Shown here: positions 11,402-13,566 of the stretch, piece after piece
Numbering within the stretch: the stretch's first letter is position 1
How the letters are laid out: every line of letters begins with the position of its first letter
Assembly (NCBI GenBank): GCA_020846515.1
Contig: JADLDX010000282.1
Location: 1-16,935, forward strand
Direction of reading: 5' to 3'
From: Pirellulaceae bacterium
Lineage (GTDB): Bacteria; Planctomycetota; Planctomycetia; Pirellulales; Pirellulaceae
DNA length: 16,935 bases
Notes under the pieces: generated by a model
Database searches by the model: none
Told to the model about the DNA's origin: nothing
The model's input: the letters and a program-made list of their open reading frames with translations, nothing else
Translations under genes and position numbers: made by a program

Positions 11402-12363
11402 CGAGAGCGTAATTGCCCGATGCTGACGGCCGTAGAACCGCCCACGACGATGTGGTCGATCACATGAATGCCCAAGATCTTGCCAGCCGTTTCAAGTGTT
11501 TGCGTGACCTCAAAGTCTTCGCGGCTGGGAGTAGGATCGCCAGAGGGATGATTGTGCACCAATAGAACGGAAGAGGCAGCATCTCGAATCGCTGCCCGAA
11601 AGACCTCGCGCGGATGCACCAGGCTGGCATCGAGGGTACCAATGGTGATCTGATGGGTGCGAATCGGAAATAGTTTGGTATCGAGGGTCACAATGTGAAA
11701 CTCCTCTTGCCGACGATCCACGGCCAGTCGGGCGAAGGTTCGGCAACAATAATCGATGGCCGCCAGGCTCGAGTTGATCTTCATCGGTGGCTCGCGATCC
11801 GCCCCCATGGCTTCGGCAACACGACGACCAAGTTCAATACCGGCCATGATTTGACAGAAGGCCGTATCACTGACCACGCGACTAACCTCTTTATATTCAG
11901 CGGCCGACCAGCCGCGCATGGCATCCAGACGCTCGCCAGCACGATTGGCAATACGCTCTCCGGCTTCCAAAGCCGACTCGCCCTTGCGACCGGTACGGAT
12001 CAGAATCGCCAATAGCTCCGCGGTACGCAGATTCTCAGCGCCGCAACGCATTAAGCGTTCTCTCGGACGCTCGGCCATCGGGGTTTGCGTAATTTGTTTG
12101 CCGCAAATCTGCCGCTCAATCCAGCCCTCAATCGAGAACTGCTCTGGTCTACGTTTCCAGCGAAACTGGCTGGTCGTACCTTCAACCGATTCCTGCAACA
12201 CGCCTTCGGCGGCCAGTTGATTGAGAATGCGGGAAACAAACGTCGGCCGAGCTTCAAAGGACTGACGTTGAATTTCGGAAGCGGTGAACTGATCCAATTG
12301 AGTGGCGGCGCCCAACACGCGTTCATAACGCGCTCGCCGCTCTTCGACGGTCGTCTCTGCCAT
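11398..12363 (-). CDS. radC: RadC family JAB/MPN-domain protein with N-terminal winged-helix-like extension
   Basis: 321 aa from the ATG at 12363, preceded by AAGGTG 6 nt upstream. Residues about 1-75 look like a winged helix-turn-helix (FTASEIQRQ, then FVSRILNQLAAEGVLQ and FRWKRR). Residues about 93-185 match the helix-hairpin-helix-like UPF0758 N-domain (MAERPRERLMRCGAENLRTA, ELLAILIRTG). The C-terminal JAB1/MPN domain carries the JAMM signature: E220 or E221, HNHPSG (H270, H272) and PSREDF with S280 and D283. RadC was once linked to DNA repair, but its role is unsettled and JAMM enzymes are usually zinc peptidases. The winged-helix addition suggests DNA binding or autoregulation, which is inference. 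The ends are converging with rpoD, and the upstream side faces the MITE-like cluster. Confidence 0.88.
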   Translation of the reverse strand: MAETTVEERRARYERVLGAATQLDQFTASEIQRQSFEARPTFVSRILNQLAAEGVLQESVEGTTSQFRWKRRPEQFSIEGWIERQICGKQITQTPMAERPRERLMRCGAENLRTAELLAILIRTGRKGESALEAGERIANRAGERLDAMRGWSAAEYKEVSRVVSDTAFCQIMAGIELGRRVAEAMGADREPPMKINSSLAAIDYCCRTFARLAVDRRQEEFHIVTLDTKLFPIRTHQITIGTLDASLVHPREVFRAAIRDAASSVLLVHNHPSGDPTPSREDFEVTQTLETAGKILGIHVIDHIVVGGSTAVSIGQLRSR

Positions 12364-12433
12364 GCTATTCACCTTGGCCGGGTCGCAAGTCCATTTATGA
12401 CGCCGCAGACACCCATGCTGCAGCACCCCCCAT

Positions 12434-12462
12434 ATGCTAGCGCACCGCCGTTCCCCCTGCAA
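12434..12462 (-). promoter_or_regulatory. Possible sigma-70-type promoter for radC
   Basis: On the minus strand TTGCAG (12462-12457), a 17-nt spacer and TAGCAT (12439-12434); a start near 12427 would leave a leader of about 64 nt before the ATG at 12363. The -35 hexamer is the same as in the candidate at 1595. Element 1 begins 49 bp further upstream. Confidence 0.35.
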
Positions 12463-12500
12463 TGCGGGGAAGCAAGATTGTGTCGGTTCGGTGGGCTGGC

Positions 12501-12510
12501 TGTTTAACGA
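12501..12510 (+). repeat. Left target-site duplication of element 1
   Basis: TGTTTAACGA at 12501-12510 is repeated exactly at 12635-12644, abutting both ends of the inverted-repeat element with no extra bases. Confidence 0.8.
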
Positions 12511-12528
12511 CAATACTGTTCAACGAAG

Positions 12529-12555
12529 CACGTAGCCGCGTCTCTCCGAGACGCG
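12529..12555 (+). repeat. Dispersed palindromic hairpin, copy C
   Basis: CACGTAG then the stem CGCGTCTC (12537-12544), loop TCC, and GAGACGCG (12548-12555). It has the GTAG-N-stem-TCC-stem plan of copies A, B and D, and pairs as an inverted partner with copy D inside element 1. Confidence 0.85.
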
Positions 12556-12581
12556 AGTCCTGAGCCTTTTGGTGAAATTCG

Positions 12582-12608
12582 CGAGTCTCGGAGAGACTCG
12601 CCTACGTG
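12582..12608 (-). repeat. Dispersed palindromic hairpin, copy D
   Basis: On the minus strand: CACGTAG, one C or G, then stem CGAGTCTC, loop TCC, stem GAGACTCG (12600-12582). Relative to copy C, one stem pair changes from C:G to A:T with both sides altered. Confidence 0.85.
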
Positions 12609-12634
12609 AAAACGCCCTTCATTGAACGGTATTG

Positions 12635-12644
12635 TGTTTAACGA
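12635..12644 (+). repeat. Right target-site duplication of element 1
   Basis: Exact copy of TGTTTAACGA at 12501-12510. It directly abuts the 10-mer that flanks element 2 on its left (12645-12654). Confidence 0.8.
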
Positions 12645-12654
12645 CGTTGACCCA

Positions 12655-12834
12655 CAATACCGTTCACGTTTAAGCGGAGCAGCGCAAGCTGCCCGGTGTT
12701 TCTCAGAGAAAAGCCAGGCGGAACCGGACGGCTCTAAGTAGGAACCGGACGGCTTGCGCCGATTCCGCTTCAATTAGAACCGGACGGCTTGCGCCGATTC
12801 CGCTTTTAAGTAGATGGAAAATTGAACGGTATTG
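12655..12834. mobile_element. MITE-like element 2 (180 bp)
   Basis: Ends CAATACCGTTCA (12655-12666) and the reverse complement at 12823-12834 match over 12 bp and share the terminus of element 1. Flanking 10-mers CGTTGACCCA (12645-12654) and CGGTCAGCCA (12835-12844) agree at 7 of 10 positions, consistent with an eroded target-site duplication. Inside lies a module beginning AAGCGGAGCAGCGCAAGC at 12672, which is an imperfect inverted copy of two 29-bp direct repeats at 12742-12770 and 12777-12805, plus a near-perfect palindrome TTTCTCAGAGAAA (12699-12711). There is no coding capacity. The right end stops 18 bp before the stop codon of the DUF374 gene. Confidence 0.6.
12721..12813 (+). repeat. 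Tandem 29-bp repeats inside element 2
   Basis: A 29-bp unit beginning GAACCGGACGGCTTGCGCC occurs identically at 12742-12770 and 12777-12805 (35-bp spacing). A shortened copy with only the first 13 bases is at 12721-12733. The short copy and the last full copy are each followed by TAAGTAG. An inverted degenerate copy is at 12672-12698. Confidence 0.85.
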
Positions 12835-12852
12835 CGGTCAGCCACCAACCGT

Positions 12853-13566
12853 TTAGTCCGCCTTCAATTCCGCTTGGCTGTCCGCATTGAATCGGGCCTC
12901 TTGCGGATCATGTTTGTGTTCCAGATCCTGCAATGAGTTTTCGATGCGTTGCCGCAACTGTTCGGCGGTTTCGTCTTCTTGCGGAAAGATTGGCTGGGCA
13001 AAGTAGCCATCGATGCGCGAGAACGGTAATGGAATCTGCAAGCGATCCCAACTGCGCGAGATTACCCAACGGCGGGTTGGCACTGGCACCATCAGCAAAA
13101 TCGCCGCATCGCAGGTTCGCGCCATAACGGCCACGCCTTTATGGACATGGCCACGCGGACCACGTGGGCCGTCCACCGCCAGTTAGGCCGGTCGACCGCT
13201 CTTGACGTGCGCGATCAATGCATCGAGCGCCTCGCGACCACCTCGGCCTGTTCCACGTCCTTTGCCACCCGATCCTCGAACGGGAATCACACCCCGGACC
13301 CACAAGGCTGGCACTATGATCTGTCCATCCAGCGAACGCGACACCATTGCCCCGGTGCCCCGTTCGCTATCGACAATCGCCGAGACTTGATGAGCGTGCA
13401 ACACCGAGAATATATAGTGCCGACCGGAGGCGCGCAGTTGTGGTCGAGGGTCATCGTGAACGCGGACACGGCACGTCCAGCGCAATACCAATACGACCAA
13501 GGCCACGCCCCACGAGGCGAAGAAGATGGTTATGTGCTTGGTAATCGGGTAACGACTGGACATCAT
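12853..13566 (-). pseudogene. DUF374 lysophospholipid-acyltransferase-like gene interrupted by one in-frame stop
   Basis: Reading one frame from ATG 13566 to TAA 12853 gives a DUF374 (LPLAT superfamily) protein of 237 codons with a TAA at codon 128 (13185-13183). The first 127 residues carry an N-terminal hydrophobic segment (about 11-28), FSVLHAHQVSAI where the acyltransferase histidine motif lies, and RGSGGKG. The second part opens with the family hallmark LAVDGPRGPRG followed by KGVAVMART. Both halves are collinear with no frameshift, so one substitution such as TAT or TAC (Tyr) to TAA explains the break. LPLAT proteins transfer acyl groups in lipid or lipid A-like synthesis. A GTG at 13176 could restart the second half, but the two halves would have to reassemble. 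A sequencing error is the main alternative. Confidence 0.75.

Follow-up and report, generated by a model that had tools for sequence, protein, structure and literature searches.

A radC-adjacent, gene-free 124-bp transposon-like element with putative IS4-subgroup mobility in a Pirellulaceae bacterium

A short transposon-like element without a gene of its own, 124 bp long (12511-12634), lies beside radC in Pirellulaceae bacterium (GCA_020846515.1, JADLDX010000282.1); positions are those of the window, by which we mean the whole stretch of 16,935 nucleotides that was analysed. We consider it highly probable that this segment is one copy of a MITE family, here called family A, mobilised in trans by an IS4-family DDE transposase of subgroup IS4, because it has the end type of this subgroup and a 10-bp duplication, the targets are centred on TTTAAC and the copies spread in a recent burst. 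Judged from its sequence and that of its relatives, it is a genuine, recently active, non-autonomous IS4-subgroup element. The transposase would pair the two CAATACYGTTCAAYGAAG ends, cut the element out and join it to staggered cuts 10 bp apart, the repair of which would give rise to the 10-bp duplication; the element itself would supply only its 18-bp ends.

Structure of the element and its surroundings

An earlier note on this DNA had described a MITE-like element of 124 bp with a perfect 10-bp target-site duplication, and both features were confirmed (Table 1). The 18-bp ends CAATACTGTTCAACGAAG and CAATACCGTTCAATGAAG show two differences (16 of 18 matching) and enclose, as had also been claimed, a pair of facing hairpins, the arms of which (12529-12555 and 12582-12608) are 89% complementary; both hairpins carry GTAG at one end, namely at the outer base. 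The sequence TGTTTAACGA abuts both edges exactly, and the length of the duplication is 10 bp as judged by the flanks, which agree in 10 of 10 positions at this length and in 2 to 5 positions at lengths of 8, 9, 11, 12 and 13. When the whole window was scanned for inverted ends matching in at least 14 of 18 positions, located 60-300 bp apart and flanked by an exact 10-bp duplication, this element was the only structure found, and none appeared in 20 first-order Markov windows. The ORF list holds no transposase-like ORF within the element, in line with the earlier view of it as non-autonomous; a mechanically called 89-aa ORF (12504-12773, minus strand) merely spans this element and its neighbour. 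The segment thus has the attributes of a MITE: it is short, lacks a transposase ORF, has inverted ends, a target duplication and dispersed copies, and shares its ends with full-length IS in related genera.

Table 1. Features of the family A element and of the adjoining family B element in the window
Feature	Position	Strand	Evidence
Left target-site duplication copy, 10 bp, TGTTTAACGA	12501..12510	.	Sequence; 10/10 against the right copy
MITE family A, 124 bp, non-autonomous	12511..12634	+	Sequence, copies, flanks
Left terminal inverted repeat CAATACTGTTCAACGAAG	12511..12528	+	Of the type found as ends of the IS4-subgroup elements L157 and L159-L161
Hairpin 1, GTAG-headed, REP-like, GTAGCCGCGTCTC TCC GAGACGCG	12532..12555	+	Also outside such ends in other genera
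Hairpin 2, GTAG-headed, REP-like, facing hairpin 1	12581..12605	-	Also outside such ends in other genera
Right terminal inverted repeat, minus-strand CAATACCGTTCAATGAAG	12617..12634	-	18/18 identity with both ends of L160 and L161
Right target-site duplication copy, 10 bp, TGTTTAACGA	12635..12644	.	Sequence; 10/10 against the left copy
Possible decayed target duplication of family B, CGTTGACCCA	12645..12654	.	7/10 against 12835-12844
MITE family B, 180 bp, same end type	12655..12834	+	Extended form of a 122-158-bp element
Possible decayed target duplication of family B, CGGTCAGCCA	12835..12844	.	7/10 against 12645-12654

The element is situated between radC (minus strand) and a DUF374 gene on the same strand. 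radC matches PF04002 and TIGR00608 and by reading starts near 12363. The DUF374 gene (12853-13566, minus strand) contains an in-frame stop near 13184 that splits it into two ORFs, reflecting either a pseudogene or a sequence error. In 18 relatives' radC loci (of 28 places outside the host), with protein identities to the host of about 49-57% (68% for one short piece), no such end was seen within 2 mismatches, and the DUF374 gene was not found as a neighbour in their flanks. These orthologues are too distant to reveal an orthologous empty site.

A second element, of family B, begins 20 bp to the right of the family A copy. It owes its length to added copies of an internal AACCGGACGGCT...GATTCCGCTT unit and is probably older than the family A copy. 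The earlier note mentioned neither this element nor the REP character of the hairpins nor the target repeat described below.

Copies and flanking duplications in the host genome

The host assembly comprises 6.48 Mb in 1089 contigs and is 80.8% complete. Allowing one mismatch, the 13-bp end gave 91 matches in it versus 13 for the reversed pattern, and several of these form 124-bp pairs. Around a part of the 91 matches, 60 stretches were fetched, in which the ends recur with other flanks, as expected of the mobile element proposed earlier, in the form of 26 candidate pairs. These include a second pair on the left end of L018 and a 96-bp pair (L195), both probably due to chance, leaving 24 host elements.

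Two host families have these ends in common, family A (124 bp) and family B (most copies 122-180 bp, the length varying through copies of the internal unit), and a third, family C, is indicated by a single end in L021. Family B surrounds another hairpin core with the ends of family A, so a single source of transposase has probably multiplied several cores unrelated to one another. The hairpin units of family B were found within 200 bp of such ends in 29 of 29 and 32 of 32 cases in the host stretches read, counts in which overlapping stretches enter repeatedly and for which the stretches were mostly chosen for ends or target repeat. For family A, 28 sites were tallied (the halves of one copy may count twice): 11 are complete, 13 reach a contig end, as expected because repeats break assemblies, and 4 end inside a contig (L022, L028, L030 and L031). 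The 11 complete copies differ from their consensus by a mean of only 1.3%, indicating that the burst was recent.

An exact 10-bp duplication flanks 11 of the 26 pairs, and 16 have one matching in at least 9 of 10 positions. When left and right flanks of different elements were combined as a control, the corresponding figures were 9 and 23 of 650, a background to which genuine sharing of targets contributes. Matching positions were most numerous at a length of 10 in all pairs except L025 (9/9 at length 9), which we read as a 10-bp duplication with loss of the element's last base. The remaining 10 pairs, including L018 (6/10) and the family B element of the window (7/10), fall below 9/10. Among viral contigs, the end pattern was present in 8 stretches, with no facing pairs 60-300 bp apart within 2 mismatches.

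Target site

The 16 duplications with at least 9/10 matches were turned to their best fit with CGTTTAACNN, and in this orientation positions 4-6 read TTA in 15 of them. Several copies are inserted between CGTTTAACAG and TCAGCCGNAGGCGTAC, within a 26-bp target repeat that has 219 host copies within two mismatches, while the reversed pattern has none. This palindromic repeat, CGTTTAACAGTCAGCCGNAGGCGTAC, is often clustered in both orientations (219 copies in G000, the host; e.g. L202-L231). From 100 of the 219 places listed, 30 loci were fetched and 42 distinct copies read: 39 have no adjoining element end, 2 have one, and 1 could not be judged. Paralogous unoccupied target sites are therefore present in the host; in L003, tandem unoccupied copies even adjoin an occupied, slightly diverged one.

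A strict motif, AGCCGNAGGCG, adjoins 3 of the 24 elements of the host and, in other genomes, 5 of 14, among them all four full-length IS copies described below (L157 and L159-L161); it was counted 25 times in 153,641 bases of host sequence, in which insertions are over-represented. It starts 11 bases from one end in all four of these IS copies and likewise in L001 and L017 of the host, and 10 bases from the end in L025. At the insertion site in the window TTTAAC is present and the strict motif absent.

Full-length IS4-subgroup elements with the same ends

According to Table 1 of an IS4-family survey (PMC2266710), subgroup IS4 has -AATR ends, a length of 1400-1650 bp and duplications of 10-13 bp. 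The window element, with CAATA and 10 bp, agrees in ends and duplication and also in having a specific target preference; unlike members of the subgroup it has no transposase and has only the 18-bp ends in common with them. A profile search for Nterm_IS4 (PF13006) in 241 genomes of the family gave matches in 17. Four of the loci (L157, L159, L160 and L161, from G283, G184, G224 and G220, respectively) hold elements of 1471-1476 bp with CAATACCGTTCAA ends, and in L160 and L161 both ends are CAATACCGTTCAATGAAG. Their flanking duplications are exact in L160 (CGTTTAACGA) and L157 (TCGTTAAACG), 9/10 in L159 and absent in L161 (5/10). Both transposases tested, those of L160 and L157, contain PF13006 and PF01609 and score 152 and 173 bits, respectively, against NF033592 transpos_IS4_1 (cut-off 115), so that Pfam and NCBIfam place these predicted proteins in the IS4 family. 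The Y(2)R(3)E(6)K motif was read in L160 (YHERWEHEQVFDEQK); this motif and the two Pfam domains are also features of the subgroup in PMC2266710.

The match between IS and MITE ends appears specific, since other PF13006 loci (L158, L162, L166, L170, L172 and others) have related or different ends. It is confined to the 18-bp ends, and no internal MITE sequence matching the IS was seen. The earlier note had guessed at the IS4 group, a guess that proved right and can be sharpened, since related genera contain complete IS4-subgroup elements that share the element's ends and target. Its suggestion of looking for full-length copies bearing a transposase was thus productive in other Pirellulaceae; in the host's incomplete assembly none was detected, and PF13006 was not found among the 20 of 27 first-look candidates scored there. 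Four host PF01609 genes were rejected as partners, there being no end match within 2 mismatches at their loci.

A scan of named genomes yielded 21 relatives: 19 come from records with a planctomycete label (Pirellulaceae MAGs, Rhodopirellula sp., Tautonia, Singulisphaera and others), the other two from MAGs bearing the labels Rhizobiales and Emcibacter. Of the 20 checked, 19 have an end that differs from CAATACCGTTCAA by no more than 2 mismatches, on both sides in 9. Of these nine, L242, L247, L252 and L254 are flanked by exact duplications of 10 bp or more and L244 by one of 9/10, while L243, L250, L251 and L259 reach only 5/10, that is, no duplication. Some are insertions already met with (L242 is the same as L160, L243 as L161, L244 as L159 and L252 as L158). 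Two matches to the IS of equal size and identity (L256 and L257) come from two MAGs, one Planctomycetales and one Rhizobiales, whose isolate names are similar, which suggests mis-binning rather than transfer.

Alternative explanations

A Tn5-like IS (subgroup IS50) was the first partner candidate, and its transposase is indeed encoded between CAATACC ends in G020 and G085 (L107, L110, L112, L115 and L116; PF14706, PF02281 and NF033590 in L107), while a related one adjoins a CAATACC end in G012 (L104). However, this IS has IS50-type ends of its own (CTGTCGATTACCCACAAGT), and within the hairpins it is flanked by a separate 11-bp duplication. Further copies occupy complete or partial GTAG hairpins away from any CAATACC end (L106, L108, L109, L113, L114, L117 and L118), and one lies in another sequence (L119). 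The nested ends and the second duplication contradict a partnership and show an IS inserted into the MITE, and it is very unlikely that a Tn5-like transposase is the motor of family A. Its 11-bp duplication exceeds the 8-9 bp listed for subgroup IS50 in PMC2266710. In the two one-contig genomes (L106-L119), the Tn5-like IS has entered mostly GTAG hairpins, some of them in MITEs and some free. In G012, the related IS is flanked on each side by a copy of the MITE body found there.

Tyrosine (Y1) transposition is not known to make a target duplication. The exact 10-bp duplications at 11 of 26 pairs therefore speak against the element being a REPIN or BIME spread by a RAYT (REP-associated tyrosine transposase) with merely incidental CAATACC ends, as does the conservation of the ends around different cores. 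The facing pair of GTAG-headed hairpins is a published hallmark of GTAG REPs (PMC3733652, excerpt) and the host has two Y1_Tnp genes, but the A hairpin is absent from both of their loci in the incomplete host assembly; we regard this explanation as improbable, if slightly less so than a Tn5-like motor. That the segment is immobile, a vertically inherited palindrome fixed in a regulatory or structural role, has next to no probability. Its intergenic position and its strong tendency to form hairpins (-67.5 kcal/mol for the plus strand taken as RNA, a raw value without shuffle control) would suit such a role, yet its copies have unrelated flanks and duplications, the 18 radC loci of relatives show no such end within 2 mismatches, and no promoter- or terminator-like site was found in 12350-12900. 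Rfam gave no match at the gathering threshold. Mobilisation by an IS4-subgroup transposase remains the reading that we prefer.

Relation to known elements

As a MITE the element is ordinary and of a kind already known; what is uncommon is the REP-pair core. MIC231 and other IS231-related MITEs or mobile insertion cassettes of Bacillus are likewise non-autonomous and have IS4-family ends, but differ from the window element in subgroup, ends and host. Their cores are not known to be REP doublets, nor are REPINs known to have DDE-type ends and a 10-bp duplication. The window element is bounded by both, and resembles REPINs and BIMEs with GTAG REPs through its core of two inverted GTAG-headed hairpins; GTAG REPs have been reported from the PVC superphylum (both points from PMC3733652). 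ISRm22 is an IS4-family element that targets dispersed palindromic REPs (PMC1525189, excerpt), and an IS4-family element here also uses a dispersed palindromic repeat as target. ISRm22, however, belongs to subgroup IS4Sa (PMC2266710, excerpt) and makes a 6-bp duplication, and in the present case a MITE uses the target as well. Internal tandem units like those of family B are present in a Porphyromonas gingivalis MITE with an internal minisatellite (PMC4596501, excerpt), from a different host and likened here by description, not by sequence. In the titles and abstract openings of the papers listed, we recognised no Planctomycetota MITE of this kind and no DDE-type MITE with a REP-doublet core, and found no description of family A, its transposase link, its target repeat or its core. 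Family A comes with a likely transposase, a target rule and fairly fresh copies.

Origin of the REP-like core

The 124-bp element was searched against the 241 family genomes (E up to 1e-6, three candidates scored per genome, hence no census) and gave matches in 26 of them, outside the host mostly hairpins alone. Nine loci from other genera were read: L234-L238 and L241 carry the doublet without a surrounding CAATACC end pair (L237 has an end match with 3 mismatches at a distance of 53 bp, but wrongly oriented), L239 and L240 have one hairpin each, and L233 has a doublet beside a weak end (3 mismatches). Within the host, 50 of the 51 exact matches to the A-hairpin pattern are in elements with at least one such end, and the exact pattern is free-standing at a single locus (C777/L186), not at high copy. 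The core, two facing GTAG-headed palindromes, is most likely a REPIN- or BIME-like REP doublet taken up from a free-standing one, as other genera have this doublet free of these ends; it is from those genera that capture is inferred, because nearly all A hairpins of the host accompany such ends. Alternatively, the free doublets might be regarded as what is left of old MITEs.

G003, G020/G085 and G012 contain MITEs in which the same ends enclose other doublets of GTAG or GTGG type. Cores of REP type are those of family A of the host, probably family C (L021, one end seen), G003 (L125), G020/G085 (L107 and others) and G012 (GTGG-headed, L120-L122); no REP-type core was seen in G037 (L123) or G054 (L124). 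That IS4-subgroup ends in Pirellulaceae have repeatedly been wrapped round lineage-specific REP doublets, turning these repeats of tyrosine-transposase type into cargo of a DDE transposase which itself prefers a third palindromic repeat as target, seems to us a serious possibility that falls somewhat short of probable. Repeated uptake of this kind would link two kinds of bacterial repeat that are usually handled separately, and would give REPs a second route of spread for which no RAYT is needed.

In G020, a pattern of two exact ends with a gap of 60-90 was found nowhere, and the elements read there are longer. One MITE of G012, 131 bp long (L122:569-699), contains GCTGGAAGC twice over, perhaps a trace left by the excision of an IS.
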